Shown here in pieces: positions 6,946-19,079 of a stretch of DNA of 21,680 nucleotides. Both the position numbers and the translations under genes were made by a program. This DNA comes from a virus. Under the pieces are notes generated by a model that ran no database searches, was not told the DNA's origin, and was given only the letters and a program-made list of their open reading frames with translations. How positions within the stretch are numbered: the first letter of the stretch is position 1; the number at the start of each line of letters is the position of its first letter. The DNA lies in IMG/VR virus record IMGVR_UViG_3300025108_000439, positions 1 to 21,680 of that record; one strand, given 5' to 3'.

Positions 6946-6974
6946 AAAAAGCACACTTAGGTGTGCTTTTTTTT
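6946..6974. terminator. Bidirectional terminator between convergent genes
   Basis: A 6-bp perfect stem, GCACAC (6951-6956) with GTGTGC (6961-6966), has a TTAG loop and is flanked by AAAAA on the left and eight T on the right. It reads as a rho-independent terminator on the + strand (after the gene ending at 6921) and on the - strand (after the ferredoxin gene, whose stop is at 6981-6983). Confidence 0.88.
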
Positions 6975-7304: not shown

Positions 7305-7889
7305 TTACGATGTCCTTGGTAACATGTGGTATGAGTGTGTAAAAAACATAGCCTTTTTCTTAGATAAGTTGGGAGTGAATCCCCACGGTATATGTGCTGG
7401 GAAGAATACTACCTTCCATGGTTGGTACTTGATAAAATGTGTGTACTCTTGTACATCAGGGTCTGGTGTAGCATACAATTTTGTATCTAACGAATCTAGA
7501 TATAAGTTACTCGTAGTCTCATCTCCTTCAACAAATACAACACACTGATACCAACGCATTCTATTTATACTAGCAGGTATGTTCATACCCGAATCTATAC
7601 ACACCAACTGGTTCTCACAGCTCTCTAAGTTTTGCAACCCTGCTGGTAATTGAAAATGGTTTACAACATTATCAAAAAACATTTTACTACACAACTGGCT
7701 AAGGCTAAACACACTATCTGTAACTTTTTGTATCTTTGTAATGTGTCCAAAATGTAACTTTACCTTGTGCATATTAGCAAATTGCTGTAACACCATTGCT
7801 TTCATTTCGTTATCTAGCTCTAATTTACCCTCAAAAACCCAGTTAGGGAATACAGGATAAGTGGACATTGAGGGTGCAGTTTTCTTCAT
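7305..7889 (-). CDS. Unrecognised protein, faintly 2OG-Fe(II) oxygenase-like (194 aa)
   Basis: The frame could extend to a TTG at 7955, but that overlaps the divergent sigma70 promoter. I chose ATG 7889 because a perfect late promoter (TATAAATA, 7902-7895) lies exactly 5 bases upstream, implying a leaderless mRNA; ATG 7868 (protein beginning MSTYPVFPNW) is the alternative. Neither has a clear ribosome binding site. The C-terminal part (KVVFFPAHIPWGFTPN followed by S-K-K-K-A-M-F-F-T) recalls the FPxxxPH.V.PN.S strand of small phage 2OG-Fe(II) oxygenases, and the opening YPVFPNWVFEGKL recalls their N-terminus. However, I see no HxD pair and the usual histidine in that strand is replaced by Trp, so an active iron site is doubtful. 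It abuts the ferredoxin gene in one transcript, which hints at a linked role. Function is unassigned. Confidence 0.75.
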   Translation of the reverse strand: MKKTAPSMSTYPVFPNWVFEGKLELDNEMKAMVLQQFANMHKVKLHFGHITKIQKVTDSVFSLSQLCSKMFFDNVVNHFQLPAGLQNLESCENQLVCIDSGMNIPASINRMRWYQCVVFVEGDETTSNLYLDSLDTKLYATPDPDVQEYTHFIKYQPWKVVFFPAHIPWGFTPNLSKKKAMFFTHSYHMLPRTS

Positions 7890-7894
7890 ACTTG

Positions 7895-7902
7895 TATTTA
7901 TA
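7895..7902 (-). promoter_or_regulatory. T4-type late promoter (TATAAATA), leftward
   Basis: On the - strand TATAAATA is a perfect match to the T4 late consensus. Five bases separate it from the ATG at 7889, so the expected start site falls on or next to the initiation codon. It should drive the two-gene ferredoxin cassette that ends at the bidirectional terminator near 6950. Confidence 0.72.
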
Positions 7903-10818: not shown

Positions 10819-10895
10819 GTCCTTGTAGCTCAATTGGATAGAGCAACGGCCTTCTAAGCCGTAGGTTGCAGGTTCGACTCCTGCCGGGGACGCCA
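10819..10895 (+). tRNA. tRNA-Arg (anticodon TCT)
   Basis: The sequence folds as a full cloverleaf. The acceptor stem GTCCTTG pairs with CGGGGAC; the D arm is GCTC...GAGC; the anticodon stem ACGGC/GCCGT holds loop CTTCTAA with anticodon TCT; the T arm GCAGG/CCTGC has loop TTCGACT. The discriminator is G and CCA is encoded (10893-10895). It reads AGA/AGG, and AGA is common in these AT-rich genes. Confidence 0.95.
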
Positions 10896-10899
10896 ATTA

Positions 10900-10976
10900 G
10901 GGCCTTTAGCTCAGATGGTTAGAGCATCCGACTCATAATCGGCAGGTCGTAGGTTCAAATCCTACAGGGCCCACCA
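10900..10976 (+). tRNA. tRNA with anticodon CAT (Met, or Ile after lysidine modification)
   Basis: It folds as a cloverleaf: acceptor GGGCCTT with AGGGCCC, anticodon loop CTCATAA, T arm GTAGG/CCTAC with loop TTCAAAT, discriminator A and encoded CCA (10974-10976). It lies 4 bases after the tRNA-Arg, so the two are processed from one transcript. The outermost pair of the anticodon stem is a T-C mismatch. The CAT anticodon does not by itself separate elongator Met from Ile2; the lack of an initiator-type C1-A72 mismatch argues against initiator Met. Confidence 0.93.
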
Positions 10977-12340: not shown

Positions 12341-12427
12341 GCCCGGGTGGTGGAATTGGTAGACACAAGGGACTTAAAATCCCTCGCCAGCAATGGCATG
12401 ACGGTTCAAGTCCGTCTCCGGGTACCA
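12341..12427 (+). tRNA. tRNA-Leu (anticodon TAA)
   Basis: This is a class II tRNA of 87 bases: acceptor GCCCGGG with TCCGGGT (two G-T pairs), anticodon stem AGGGA/TCCCT with loop CTTAAAA (anticodon TAA), a long variable arm (GCCA/TGGC), T arm GACGG/CCGTC with loop TTCAAGT, discriminator A and encoded CCA (12425-12427). It reads TTA, the most used Leu codon in the neighbouring genes. Confidence 0.95.
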
Positions 12428-13487: not shown

Positions 13488-14594
13488 TTAGAATTTATGA
13501 GTATCACGTCTATCGCGTTTAGTCACCTGGTCTATCTCCCATTGGTGGAGTTTGTTTATAGAAGCATTTATTTCTGCAACAAGTCTCTTGGGAAGTCTTG
13601 ATTGGAGTCCTGGATGTGCAAAGTTTCTTTTTACAGAAAAGGATCTAGCAAAGAACCAAGGATCTTTTACTTGTTCGCATAACAGGTCTGTGAGTTTATC
13701 CATCTCGGCAGAGCCATGTGCAATCTTAGGATTCTGTCTAAGAAAGTTATACATCTCCACTTCGGGTGCCAGCCAGTCTTCGAAATTTACTTTCCAGTTT
13801 TGTGGATTCTCTAATGCTAAAGGATCTTGTAAAAAAGAACGTGGCATTTCTCTTTGCAAAACTTTAAACATGTCATGGCCCGGTTGGCCAATTTGGTCTC
13901 TTATCCCATGTTTCTTAGGAGTGTTCCAGCGATTAACTTCTTCACGTTCCTCGCCAATGTGTAACTTATTTGTTGTATACTCAGTCCAATTTCTCAAGTC
14001 TATGAACTCTACATTTGCTTGTTGGTTGAAGTATGGCGTTAATGCAACTACTGTTAATACTGGATCTAAATGGTTTTCACCAAATGTATAATCTATATAC
14101 GGCTTCTGGCTATCTGAATATACTGTATTTTTTATTGTTCTTACAAAGTTCTGCCACACATACATTTGCCTCGTTCTGTGAGCGGCTGTATCTTCAGTTA
14201 ACGGAAACATTGCTTCAATTTCTTCCTTGCCGCCGTTGTGATAGTAAGGATCCATAGTGCTTTCTGTTGCTGACTTTATATCCCAATCATGATTAATCAT
14301 AATTAGACCAGAGCAGTATCTATGCATAGGATCTCTAATACAGAACTTTATGTTGTTATGTTTTATTTCAGCATATGAACCAAAGTTAACTAGAGTACCT
14401 TCAGTAGGACACCATTCAGCAAAACTATGCTCTTGCATATCAAGTGTTATGCCTCTAATTAGTTCATGGTGATATGATGATTGATCTGCGTCTGTTAACG
14501 AGTTTATATAAGAACTTGCATTACGTTTGAATAATCCCCAAGTCTCTAAAGTTTTGCCTGTTTGTTTATCTCTTAGGTGAAAATATGATATCAT
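13488..14594 (-). CDS. Sulfotransferase-like protein (368 aa)
   Basis: The ATG at 14594 has an AAAGGAC site about 12 bases upstream and a GATAAATA late promoter on the - strand. Near residues 84-100 is FCIRDPMHRYCSGLIMI, which resembles the 3'-phosphate binding strand of PAPS-dependent sulfotransferases (R-D-P-x-x-R-x-x-S-G). Further on, YTFGENHLDP (about 169-178) and VEFIDLRN (about 195-202) recall later segments of phage and bacterial sulfotransferase-like proteins. I do not see a clear N-terminal PK.G(T/S)-type 5'-phosphosulfate loop, so activity is uncertain and the family call is tentative. It runs against its neighbours and is expressed late, which would suit modification of a virion or cell-surface component. 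Confidence 0.85.
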   Translation of the reverse strand: MISYFHLRDKQTGKTLETWGLFKRNASSYINSLTDADQSSYHHELIRGITLDMQEHSFAEWCPTEGTLVNFGSYAEIKHNNIKFCIRDPMHRYCSGLIMINHDWDIKSATESTMDPYYHNGGKEEIEAMFPLTEDTAAHRTRQMYVWQNFVRTIKNTVYSDSQKPYIDYTFGENHLDPVLTVVALTPYFNQQANVEFIDLRNWTEYTTNKLHIGEEREEVNRWNTPKKHGIRDQIGQPGHDMFKVLQREMPRSFLQDPLALENPQNWKVNFEDWLAPEVEMYNFLRQNPKIAHGSAEMDKLTDLLCEQVKDPWFFARSFSVKRNFAHPGLQSRLPKRLVAEINASINKLHQWEIDQVTKRDRRDTHKF

Positions 14595-14615: not shown

Positions 14616-14623
14616 TATTTATC
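14616..14623 (-). promoter_or_regulatory. T4-type late promoter (GATAAATA), leftward
   Basis: On the - strand GATAAATA lies 21 bases upstream of the ATG at 14594. It is back-to-back with the rightward late promoter at 14634-14641, with only 10 bases between them. Confidence 0.7.
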
Positions 14624-14633
14624 GTTTATTTTA

Positions 14634-14641
14634 GATAAATA
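14634..14641 (+). promoter_or_regulatory. T4-type late promoter (GATAAATA)
   Basis: GATAAATA lies 32 bases upstream of the ATG at 14674 and diverges from the leftward late promoter at 14616-14623. Confidence 0.72.
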
Positions 14642-14673: not shown

Positions 14674-15108
14674 ATGGCAGAGAAAGAACAAGCAGAAGTC
14701 ACGATGAGTCGTGCCGAGTACGATGCCTTACAAGCCAAAGCAGGTGAAGAGGCACCAGTTGGCGGCGTAAAATACGATTCCAGAGGTTTTAAAACTATCG
14801 AAGGAATGGAGGCCGCTGATATTAATGGTGACGGACATATATCTGATACAGAAGCAAAAATGCACTTAGAGTTCAAAAGAAAAGAACTAGAAGATGCTGA
14901 TGCAATGAGAGATGCTCAACGTAAGATGGCATGGTTCTCATTATTTGGAATGTTACTATACCCATTTGCAGTAATTGTAGCCAGTTTGGCAGGTTTAAGC
15001 GAAGCACAGGCTACCTTAGGTAGTATGGCACCAACATACTTTGTTGCAGTTGCCGGTATTGTAGCGGCATTCTTCGGAGCTCAGGCTTTTAGTGCCACCA
15101 AAAAATAG
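14674..15108 (+). CDS. EF-hand membrane protein (144 aa)
   Basis: The ATG at 14674 has a strong TAGGAGG site (about 14662-14668) and a late promoter. The N-terminal 80 residues are hydrophilic and hold a canonical EF-hand loop, DINGDGHISDTE, at 49-60, with D49, N51, D53, H55, S57 and E60 at the calcium-coordinating positions. A charged helix (HLEFKRKELEDADAMRDAQR) follows, then two hydrophobic segments at about 86-108 and 118-139, separated by a short SEAQATLGS loop, and a basic tail. The order is thus soluble calcium-binding domain, helix, membrane hairpin. The size and two-segment topology would suit a holin-like or other envelope protein, but many other roles are possible. I recall similar proteins in marine T4-like phages without a function. 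Confidence 0.88.
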   Translation: MAEKEQAEVTMSRAEYDALQAKAGEEAPVGGVKYDSRGFKTIEGMEAADINGDGHISDTEAKMHLEFKRKELEDADAMRDAQRKMAWFSLFGMLLYPFAVIVASLAGLSEAQATLGSMAPTYFVAVAGIVAAFFGAQAFSATKK

Positions 15109-15120
15109 GTGTTCATAACG

Positions 15121-15169
15121 AATATGTGTTCCATACAAGTTAGATAAATACTAATATGGAACACAAATT
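15121..15169 (+). promoter_or_regulatory. Long inverted repeat flanking a late promoter and covering a start codon
   Basis: Arms at 15121-15135 and 15155-15169 pair over 15 positions with one mismatch (11 perfect pairs: TGTGTTCCATA with TATGGAACACA). The 19-base centre contains the GATAAATA late promoter, and the right arm contains the ATG at 15156. A transcript reading in from upstream would hide the start codon in a hairpin. A transcript starting at the late promoter would lack the left arm. No T tract follows, so it is not a terminator. Confidence 0.8.
15143..15150 (+). promoter_or_regulatory. T4-type late promoter (GATAAATA) inside an inverted repeat
   Basis: GATAAATA is followed by exactly 5 bases and then the ATG at 15156, the same geometry as the leftward promoter at 7895-7902. 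The predicted start site falls on the initiation codon, giving a leaderless mRNA. Confidence 0.7.
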
Positions 15170-15464
15170 TGTTAAACATTTTGCAAGACTTATCACAGAC
15201 GCAGAGTTATCAAACGATGATGTCGCAGAGTATTACGACATTGTCGAGTCCCATATCCCCACTAAAGTAGTTGTTGCTTACACTGACGATCACGAAATGG
15301 TTAGTGCTGAAGTAACACTATACTCCACCACAGAAGATAGAACAATATACGAAGTGGTACTACAAGAAGCAGTTGATGACGAAGAAGGCGATGCTATTAC
15401 AAAGGATCTCTTTGAAGCATTTCCAAATATTGACTTTGACTTCGAATCCTCACTAGAAATTTAA
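15156..15464 (+). CDS. Small acidic protein, unknown (102 aa)
   Basis: ATG 15156 is the only plausible start; the next in-frame ATG is more than 50 codons further on. No ribosome binding site precedes it, and the ATG lies 5 bases from a late promoter, within one arm of an inverted repeat. The product is strongly acidic, especially in its C-terminal half (LQEAVDDEEGDAITKDLFEAF, in short runs, then DFDFESSLEI), with a helical N-terminus (FVKHFARLITDAEL). No family is recognised. Its acidity recalls DNA-mimic or chaperone-like phage proteins only in a general way. Late expression is inferred from the promoter. Confidence 0.8.
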   Translation: MEHKFVKHFARLITDAELSNDDVAEYYDIVESHIPTKVVVAYTDDHEMVSAEVTLYSTTEDRTIYEVVLQEAVDDEEGDAITKDLFEAFPNIDFDFESSLEI

Positions 15465-15467
15465 AGG

Positions 15468-15495
15468 TTGACACCAGCCAGAATCCGTGTATAAT
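15468..15495 (+). promoter_or_regulatory. Sigma70-like promoter upstream of dsbA-like gene
   Basis: TTGACA (15468-15473, just after the upstream stop) and TATAAT (15490-15495) are perfect with a 16-base spacer. A separate late-promoter match lies downstream at 15509-15516, so the gene at 15543 probably has two promoters. Confidence 0.85.
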
Positions 15496-15508
15496 GTACC
15501 TAACGGCG

Positions 15509-15516
15509 CATAAATA
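15509..15516 (+). promoter_or_regulatory. Probable late promoter (CATAAATA)
   Basis: CATAAATA is one base off the T4 late consensus and lies 26 bases before the ATG at 15543. With the sigma70-like promoter at 15468 it would allow both early/middle and late expression. Confidence 0.55.
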
Positions 15517-15542: not shown

Positions 15543-15806
15543 ATGGCATTTAATAAAACATTTAACGAAGAAGAAAAAGCAAGACTGAAGAAGTTAATCG
15601 ACGAAGGTATGCAAGTTACCTACGAAGTTGAAACACTCAAAGAAGGTCTAAGAGAAACTGTCAAAGCAATAGCGGAAGAAATGGAACTAAAGCCAGGCGT
15701 ACTTAATAAGGCAATTAGAATTGCACATAAGTCTAGTTTCCAAGACGAGTTTGATAAGTTTGACGAGCTTGAAACAATTCTAGAGACAGTCGGCAGAACG
15801 TTATAG
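15543..15806 (+). CDS. dsbA: DsbA-like dsDNA-binding late-transcription protein (87 aa)
   Basis: The ATG at 15543 has a CAGGAAAG site. The 87-residue, highly charged, all-helical product matches T4 DsbA in size and layout: an N-terminal helix, a central IKDIR-like helix (here LRETVKAIAEEM), and a C-terminal stretch LKPGVLNKAIRIAHKSSFQD then EFDKFDELETIL, corresponding to the K-x-F-N-x-L-L-x-x-Y-H-K ... E ... V-E-L-Y-D part of T4 DsbA. In T4 this protein binds double-stranded DNA and aids late transcription. It has both a sigma70-like and a late promoter here, which would fit a factor linking the two phases. The family call rests on pattern resemblance, not on a search. Confidence 0.82.
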   Translation: MAFNKTFNEEEKARLKKLIDEGMQVTYEVETLKEGLRETVKAIAEEMELKPGVLNKAIRIAHKSSFQDEFDKFDELETILETVGRTL

Positions 15807-16388: not shown

Positions 16389-19079
16389 ATGAGTTACGTT
16401 GATGCATTCTATGATAAGAACAAAGACATTGTAAGAACTGTTGAGCGTGTCAATGGTGAAAGAATTTATGTTGACCATCGTCCAGAATACAATTTTTTTG
16501 TTGCTGATCCTAAAGGTAGTCACACTAGTGTCTATGGTGAAAAGGTTACAGAGATAAGATGTAAAAGCAACAAAGAGTTTCGCAAGAACGTTGCAATTAA
16601 TACGCACAACAAAAAGTTTGAAAGTGATGTTCGACCACTAAACAAAACAATAGCAAAGCATTACAATGGTGCTGAGCAACCTATACTACAAACAGCATTC
16701 CTTGATATTGAGGTAGACTTCGATCCTGAGAGAGGCTACAGTTCTCCCGAAGATGCATTTATGGAAATTACTTCTGTAGGAGTCTACTTACAATGGATGG
16801 ATGCTATGGTATGTTTGGCTGTTCCACCTAAGACATTAAGTTGGGGACAAGCTCAAAGCATAGCAAGTAAGATGCCTGAAGTTGTGCTGTTTAAAACAGA
16901 AAAAGAAATGCTGAAAACGTTCTTAGAACTTATTGATGATGCTGATGTGCTAAGTGGATGGAACTCAGAAGGTTATGATATTCCTTATCTAGTAAACAGG
17001 ATCGTAAAAACATTAGGCAAGGCAGAAACAAGAAAGTTATGCTTGTTTGATCAGTTTCCAAAGCAAAGAACATATGAAGCATTTGGTAGCGAACGTGAGA
17101 CATATGACTTAGTAGGGCGTGTACACTTAGACTATATGCAGTTGTACAGGAAGTATAACTATGAAGAGCGACACAGTTACAGACTAGACTATATTGGTGA
17201 GATGGAAGTAGGCGAGAAGAAAGTTGCTTATGAAGGCTCACTAGATAGACTTTACAATCACGACTTTGAAAAGTTCTTAGAATACAACATACAAGACGTT
17301 ATGTTGCTAGACAAAATGGATAAGAAGTTACAGTTCATTGACCTAGCAAATACTATTGCACATGATAATACTGTACTGCTACCCACTACAATGGGTGCTG
17401 TAGCAACTACTGAACAAGCAATTATCAACGAAGCACATAGACGTAACATGGTTGTGCCAGACAGGAAAAAGTATTCTAAAGACAAAGAGAACACACAGGC
17501 GGCTGGTGCCTATGTGGCTTTCCCCAAGAAAGGCTTTCACAAATGGATAGGCAGTATGGACTTAAACAGTCTATATCCTAGTGTGTTTAGAGCATTGAAC
17601 ATGGGGCAAGAAACAGTAGTAGGACAACTTCGTCCGGACTATACTGATCAAGAAATTAACGATAAGGTAACTTTAGAAAAGAAATCTTTTGCTGATGCTT
17701 GGTTAGGCAAGTTTGGTAGTAACGAATATGAAATGACAATGGCCAAAGATGTTGATCATACATTGCATCTTGACATGGAAGATGGCTCATCAGTAGAAGT
17801 AACAGGAGCAGATGTATATAACTTAATATTCAACTCCGGTCAGCCTTGGAATATTAGTGCAAACGGTACTATATTTAAGACAGACTTCCAAGGTATTGTA
17901 CCTGGGTTGTTGGAGAGATGGTATGCTGAGAGAAAAGAACTACAGGCTAAAAAGAAACAAGCAACTACACCAGAGGAAATTGCTTTTTGGGATAAAAGAC
18001 AGCTCGTTAAGAAAATTAACCTCAATAGTTTATATGGTGCTATTCTTAACCCTGGTTGCCGCTTCTTTGATAAACGTATTGGACAATCCACTACGCTCAC
18101 AGGTAGAGCAATCACGAAACACATGGGAGCAGAAACAAACAAAATGCTCACAGGAGTGTACGACCACACAGGAGAAACAATAGTTTATGGTGACACTGAC
18201 TCTGTTTACTTTAGTGCCACACCTGCATTGCCAAAAGGTGAGGACTTAGATATGGATAGTGCAATTAAATTGTATGATCATATATCAGACACAGTCAGTG
18301 ACACATTTCCTAAGTTTCTAAACAAAGCATTTAACATTCCGCTTAGTGCTGGTGCTGTTATGATTGCTGGTAGAGAAGTAGTTGGCAAGAGCGGTTTGTT
18401 TATTACTAAGAAGCGTTATGCAATCAAGTGTTTAGACATTGAAGGGTACCAACCTGAGGGTGGTAAACTAAAAATTATGGGCATGGATATCAAGCGAAGT
18501 GATACGCCCGAGTTTGTGCAGGACTTTTTAGAAGAAGTATTAGACAACGCACTTGATGGTATGAGCGAAGACGAAGTTATACAAAAGATAAAAGACTTCA
18601 AGGATGACTTTAGGGCAATGGAACCTTGGAAGAAAGGTATGCCTAAACGTGTAAACAACTTAACCACATATGGTGAGAAACTTAACAAACAAAGACGTAT
18701 GAGTGCAACACACACAAAACTGCGTAAACTAGACGCACTAAAGCCTAAAGAGAATACAATGATACCTGGGCATGTTAGAGCAAGTATCAATTACAATGAG
18801 GCTAGAGAAGCCTTTAGCGATGCATACAGTATGGCTATCATGGACGGTATGAAAGTTATTGTGTGCAAACTAAAAAGTAATGCACTAGGCTATACAAGTA
18901 TTGCATACCCAACAGACGAAATGCATATACCTGCTTGGTTCAAAGAGATGCCGTTCGATGAAGAAGCAATGGAAGAGAGTGTGCTAAACAAAAAGATTAA
19001 TAATGTGTTAGGTGCTATGGGTTGGGACTTAACTAGAATGAACGAAAGCAAAGTACTAGGTACTTTCTTTGAACTATAG
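16389..19079 (+). CDS. 43: DNA polymerase, family B, T4 gp43-like (896 aa)
   Basis: The length is almost that of T4 gp43 (898) and the motifs are in the right order. The 3'-5' exonuclease has Exo I FLDIEVD (D106, E108), Exo II WNSEGYD (D197) and Exo III YNIQD (Y299, D303). The polymerase has motif A MDLNSLYPS (D391), motif B KKINLNSLYG (541-550) and motif C YGDTDS (600-605, D602 and D604). All catalytic acids are present, so both synthesis and proofreading should work. It is the replicative polymerase and would act with the clamp encoded at 19833. A consensus sigma70 promoter lies so close to the ATG that the mRNA is probably leaderless; only a weak AGG precedes the ATG. In T4, gp43 represses its own translation by binding a leader hairpin; such a leader cannot exist on this short transcript. 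Confidence 0.98.
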   Translation: MSYVDAFYDKNKDIVRTVERVNGERIYVDHRPEYNFFVADPKGSHTSVYGEKVTEIRCKSNKEFRKNVAINTHNKKFESDVRPLNKTIAKHYNGAEQPILQTAFLDIEVDFDPERGYSSPEDAFMEITSVGVYLQWMDAMVCLAVPPKTLSWGQAQSIASKMPEVVLFKTEKEMLKTFLELIDDADVLSGWNSEGYDIPYLVNRIVKTLGKAETRKLCLFDQFPKQRTYEAFGSERETYDLVGRVHLDYMQLYRKYNYEERHSYRLDYIGEMEVGEKKVAYEGSLDRLYNHDFEKFLEYNIQDVMLLDKMDKKLQFIDLANTIAHDNTVLLPTTMGAVATTEQAIINEAHRRNMVVPDRKKYSKDKENTQAAGAYVAFPKKGFHKWIGSMDLNSLYPSVFRALNMGQETVVGQLRPDYTDQEINDKVTLEKKSFADAWLGKFGSNEYEMTMAKDVDHTLHLDMEDGSSVEVTGADVYNLIFNSGQPWNISANGTIFKTDFQGIVPGLLERWYAERKELQAKKKQATTPEEIAFWDKRQLVKKINLNSLYGAILNPGCRFFDKRIGQSTTLTGRAITKHMGAETNKMLTGVYDHTGETIVYGDTDSVYFSATPALPKGEDLDMDSAIKLYDHISDTVSDTFPKFLNKAFNIPLSAGAVMIAGREVVGKSGLFITKKRYAIKCLDIEGYQPEGGKLKIMGMDIKRSDTPEFVQDFLEEVLDNALDGMSEDEVIQKIKDFKDDFRAMEPWKKGMPKRVNNLTTYGEKLNKQRRMSATHTKLRKLDALKPKENTMIPGHVRASINYNEAREAFSDAYSMAIMDGMKVIVCKLKSNALGYTSIAYPTDEMHIPAWFKEMPFDEEAMEESVLNKKINNVLGAMGWDLTRMNESKVLGTFFEL

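Follow-up and report, generated by a model that had tools for sequence, protein, structure and literature searches.

In bacteriophage T4, genes e, soc, 49 and I-TevI have a translation start that is closed off by a helix in longer RNAs; transcripts from their late promoters lack the 5' strand of that helix (PMC3014915). For gene e, the hairpin represses expression about 100-fold (PMC3014915). The late promoter of T4 is a TATA box that precedes the transcription start by about one helical turn (PMC2988020). We analyzed a related arrangement in a 21,680-base viral record (the window, meaning the whole stretch of DNA under study) from a marine T4-like phage with genes for a T4-like DNA polymerase and a DsbA-like protein.

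The locus resembles the four T4 genes in that the start would be hidden on a longer RNA from upstream, with a late promoter placed within the hairpin and a late RNA that is predicted to lack the 5' strand. It differs from them because the T4 late RNA has a leader with a Shine-Dalgarno sequence, whereas the RNA of the window's gene is predicted to start at the ATG, and because the masked RNA is early or middle in T4, whereas the adjacent upstream unit in the window is late. The stem is also longer and has the stronger score (z -7.8 versus -3.6 for gene e in a masked-start scan). With the T4-type late promoter (TATAAATA; gp55/gp33/gp45) it shares the box in front of open reading frames. A large subset of the boxes in marine heterotroph T4-like phages stands 5 nt from the ATG of an open reading frame, a placement that is not found in T4 and Syn9. 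As in known leaderless phage mRNAs, the RNA of the window's gene is predicted to have its AUG at the 5' end, or directly beside it, and no Shine-Dalgarno sequence; unlike them, the gene would belong to a recurrent, genome-wide class of late genes in T4-like phages.

The hairpin, its promoter and its start codon

The core arms, 15121-15135 (AATATGTGTTCCATA) and 15155-15169 (TATGGAACACAAATT), match as complements in 14 of their 15 positions and flank a 19-nt center, exactly as a first-pass annotation of the sequence had described (arms of 15 positions with one mismatch around a center that holds the promoter box). According to a repeat finder, which extends the arms to 15116-15140 and 15150-15174, no other inverted repeat in the 21.7-kb window is as long or as good. 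Folded as RNA, the extended hairpin (15116-15174) has 22 pairs and a free energy of -23.5 kcal/mol. The 49-nt core alone reaches -16.3 kcal/mol (z -6.5), and none of 200 dinucleotide shuffles was equally stable. The coordinates of the hairpin and of the neighboring features are collected in Table 1.

Table 1. Features of the window, and start codons of the 5-nt type in HTVC008M (last two lines, positions in that genome)
Feature	Position	Strand	Remarks
Leaderless-type late promoter no. 2 of the window	7895-7901	-	ATAAATA-N5-ATG; gene 7305-7889; without hairpin
Consensus early promoters	7949, 9066, 9345, 15468, 16352, 19448	+	perfect TTGACA-N16/17-TATAAT
tRNA-Arg(tct) gene	10819-10895		
tRNA-Met(cat) gene	10900-10976		
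tRNA-Leu(taa) gene	12341-12427		
Opposite-strand gene	13488-14594	-	1.1 kb
Late promoter box of upstream gene	14635-14641	+	followed by a strong Shine-Dalgarno sequence, AGGAGG
Upstream gene, 144 aa	14674-15108	+	EF-hand-like stretch, C-terminal hydrophobic segment
Left arm of hairpin	15116-15140	+	non-coding; pairs 15116-15123, 15125-15135, 15138-15140
T4-type late promoter box GATAAATA	15143-15150	+	in hairpin loop; predicted transcription start 15156
Right arm of hairpin	15150-15174	+	contains start codon and codons 2-6
Downstream gene, 102 aa	15156-15464	+	acidic
Next transcription unit	15468-15516	+	early promoter TTGACA-16-TATAAT 15468-15495, then late box ATAAATA 15510-15516; precedes DsbA-like gene
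DsbA-like late-transcription protein gene	15543-15806	+	
T4-like DNA polymerase gene	16389-19079		
HTVC008M ATGs of the 5-nt type	6280, 7562, 19456, 31132, 49760, 75559, 142360	+	
HTVC008M ATGs of the 5-nt type	18916, 16007	-	

The ATG at 15156 had been proposed as the only usable start, and this holds: the in-frame ATG at 15123 runs into a TAA at 15144, and the N-terminus MEHKFVKHFARL of the downstream protein aligns with the starts of 16 homologues. The start codon is not preceded by a Shine-Dalgarno sequence. A leader peptide encoded by the mini-ORF of 7 codons that starts at this ATG in the left arm was considered and dismissed, as L005, L006 and L017 have no consistent ATG-initiated version. 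The downstream protein gave no Pfam match, only weak PHROG matches, and no homologue in annotated phages. Its AlphaFold2 model (pLDDT 80) has weak ferredoxin-like/PII-like fold matches (TM about 0.5), too weak to name a function.

On read-through RNA, the modelled probability that the ATG is unpaired is below 0.01, and the pairing is conserved, which supports the proposed hiding of the start. A late promoter inside the hairpin, also part of the first-pass annotation, is likewise supported by the predicted box in the loop, which is present in every relative. The ATAAATA motif by itself shows no enrichment over the window (10 copies versus 8.0 expected); all seven plus-strand copies are located 12-65 nt upstream of the start of an open reading frame. 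For the leaderless RNA alone, the modelled accessibility of the AUG shifts with the length that is folded.

Taken as a whole, the 47-nt spacer that separates gene 14674 from gene 15156 probably acts as a regulatory cassette. In RNA entering from upstream, most likely late RNA that begins at 14635, the start codon would be buried in the right arm of the 22-pair hairpin and closed to free ribosomes as well as to ribosomes finishing the upstream gene. The promoter in the loop would start a separate RNA at, or within one nucleotide of, the A of the ATG; lacking the left arm, this RNA could not form the hairpin and would be translated as a leaderless mRNA. With the start buried on read-through RNA and the left arm missing from the gene's own late RNA, the gene would be expressed only from its own late promoter. 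A masking logic like that of T4 gene e is well supported, and the hairpin probably insulates gene 15156 from upstream late RNA and ribosomes, so that translation takes place only from the gene's own leaderless late RNA.

Masking of the start might instead be a by-product, if the hairpin served the upstream gene in RNA processing or as a 3'-end element (an RNase III site or a stabilizer). With about 20 near-continuous pairs, the hairpin comes near the stem length required by RNase III; it also lies just behind the upstream stop codon. An intrinsic terminator, however, is ruled out: the stem is AT-rich without a T run after it, and a terminator scan made no call at the hairpin. A processing or 3'-end role also leaves unexplained why a promoter is present in the loop with fixed spacing and why the hairpin occurs only at loci with that promoter, and we regard it as improbable. 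Elsewhere in the window, a strong and symmetric terminator hairpin (AAAAAGCACAC/GTGTGCTTTTT) is found between convergent genes at 6946-6971.

Conservation of the stem in relatives

Nine viral contigs carry the gene family with the same promoter; they represent seven distinct sequences and about five diverged lineages. Searching by DNA pattern did not reveal hairpin loci beyond these nine contigs, nor any in bacterial genomes. The box and its exact 5-nt distance to the ATG are unchanged in all seven distinct sequences. The RNA structure is conserved as well, with the same hairpin in six of the seven (z -4.9 to -6.3). L005 has lost the hairpin (z -0.8) and retains promoter and spacing, so masking is not indispensable. 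The ATG has a probability of being unpaired that is mostly below 0.01 in five of six distinct sequences; in L007, a mismatch falls on the middle base of the ATG.

Since the right arm codes for protein and hardly varies, the non-coding left arm was the place to test for conserved pairing. When only the left arm was shuffled and the coding right arm was kept, zero to one of 1000 shuffles were equally stable in five of the six distinct sequences. When left and right arms were re-paired among the relatives (all 720 combinations), the native pairing came first, sharing this rank only with the exchange of two right arms of identical sequence. A functionless hairpin, arising as a chance complement of the conserved N-terminus, would be in keeping with the missing hairpin in L005, but the shuffles and the swap test speak against it and make it hardly conceivable.

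Using pairs taken from each sequence's own fold, we found two-sided changes at six positions of the stem and wobble-compatible one-sided changes at another six. For example, a C-G pair is replaced by T-A at codon 3 in L007, and pairs just before the ATG are changed on both sides in L006. The paired changes in the two arms that would be anticipated for a functional RNA stem are thus seen, as compensatory or wobble changes, in four of the five diverged lineages, and L005 is the one that fails. In an ungapped column alignment covariation was no higher than in controls, but this comparison is uninformative, since L005, L007 and L017 have a left arm that is displaced by one base with respect to the promoter.

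The dyad is symmetric around the promoter and could be imagined as a DNA operator for a dimeric protein that regulates the late promoter. However, the arm sequences vary among the relatives, and what is kept is pairing as RNA, including G-U pairs that break the symmetry of the DNA. We rejected the operator for these reasons and consider it very unlikely. Separately from the main stem, the stretch AGGTGTTC at 15107-15114, right behind the upstream stop, is nearly invariant in the relatives; it may add outer pairs in some of them.

Spacing of late promoter boxes and start codons

The distance from ATAAATA to ATG was counted in seven marine T4-like phage records (HTVC008M, Melnitz and five uncultured phages). 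An ATG was found 47 times at 5 nt and 14 times at 6 nt, versus a mean of 1.9 at neighboring spacings. Few ATGs are located 9-14 nt from the box, and a broad hump follows at 15-40 nt. T4, Syn9 and P-SSM2 together have one ATG at 5 nt and none at 6 nt, and control motifs do not give a 5-nt peak. A scan of about 80 loci recorded the 5-nt spacing 31 times and, by the rules of that scan, no spacing of 1-4 or 6-16 nt. In HTVC008M, all nine ATGs of the 5-nt type are GenBank starts annotated by the depositors.

The bimodal distribution says that the leader is either absent or long enough for a Shine-Dalgarno sequence. With a box about one helical turn from the transcription start, the 5-nt spacing makes the predicted +1 position fall on the A of the ATG or on a neighboring base. 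Judged from these sequences, the RNAs of genes with the 5-nt spacing are probably leaderless. The leaderless late RNA that had been predicted for gene 15156 is thus supported both by its own spacing and by the 47 occurrences in this spacing class. A search of openly accessible papers found no description of leaderless late genes in T4-like phages.

Hairpins are not a general property of such genes. Over 81 distinct sites with 5-nt or 6-nt spacing the mean z is -0.5, and on this ground we rejected the idea that hairpins generally accompany leaderless late genes. Among the 81 sites, only the family of gene 15156 combines a z below -4 with a hairpin that clearly spans promoter and start; the one other site with z below -4 looks like an upstream terminator. 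The family also ranks first in the masked-start scan at late promoters, which also picked up as positives gene e and two homing-endonuclease genes of T4. On balance, we lean towards the view that the late genes of marine heterotroph T4-like phages include a second class, whose mRNAs are leaderless through the 5-nt promoter spacing, and that one lineage has added a hairpin by which one such gene would be expressed from the leaderless RNA alone and never from the upstream message.

Two further sites deserve mention. The ATAAATA-N5-ATG arrangement of gene 7305-7889 (minus strand) also occurs in L101; the listed start of this open reading frame (TTG 7955) is probably wrong, the true start being ATG 7889. 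In Melnitz (MZ577097, about 76310-76363, plus strand), a terminator-like stem has a late box (TTATAAATAG) in its loop, 21 nt before an ATG, and possibly combines the terminator of the upstream gene and the promoter of the next gene in one element.

The probable read-through RNA from upstream

The masked read-through RNA probably comes from the upstream gene 14674-15108. An equivalent late promoter with leader is present in five homologous loci (L034, L052, L053, L057 and L072). The masked RNA is most likely another late RNA, because the upstream gene has its own late promoter, and the nearest consensus early promoter is far away and beyond an opposite-strand gene. In the region upstream of the gene there are also two divergent late boxes, arranged back-to-back and 12 nt apart (14616-14622, minus strand; 14635-14641, plus strand), between genes 13488-14594 and 14674-15108.

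The first-pass annotation had suggested that the gene is off early and on late, and the early-off half of this proposal is not borne out. A true timing switch of the T4 gene e type, with distant early read-through RNA and a gene silent until late transcription, has the precedent of e, soc, 49 and I-TevI (PMC3014915), and the plus strand has no convincing terminator between 9345 and 15121, which would make long early read-through possible. Against it, the adjacent upstream gene is late, and the early promoter consensus is absent between 9372 and 15468. The nearest such promoter on the same strand (9345) is about 5.7-5.8 kb away, with the 1.1-kb opposite-strand gene standing in between. The consensus is likewise missing from the 1.6-5 kb of upstream sequence available for the relatives, except for a weak candidate about 2.8 kb upstream in L007, and other late genes closer to the early region lack a hairpin. 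Nothing in the analysis points to early-off control through long read-through, and we consider the timing switch unlikely.

The arrangement differs in other homologues of gene 15156. In about 45 of them, only -1 to 12 nt lie between the upstream stop and the start of the gene, z is near 0, and late box and hairpin are both absent; this geometry is the classic layout of a gene coupled in translation to a late gene. A few other homologous loci have a gap of 57-160 nt after the upstream stop. In L213, where the distance to the upstream stop is still short, the 5-nt promoter is present and the hairpin is missing. Where others show the coupling geometry, the window's lineage has the 47-nt spacer with its own promoter and mask.

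Insulation of gene 15156 from upstream late RNA would extend the classic masked-start control of T4 to uncultured marine phages, in a form without any leader RNA. For the cultured phage HTVC008M, the spacing class predicts that nine named genes have RNA 5' ends at their start codons. If this is true, late protein synthesis in marine T4-like phages would partly rely on leaderless initiation, with a bearing on gene calling, on the prediction of expression and on host translation in streamlined marine bacteria.
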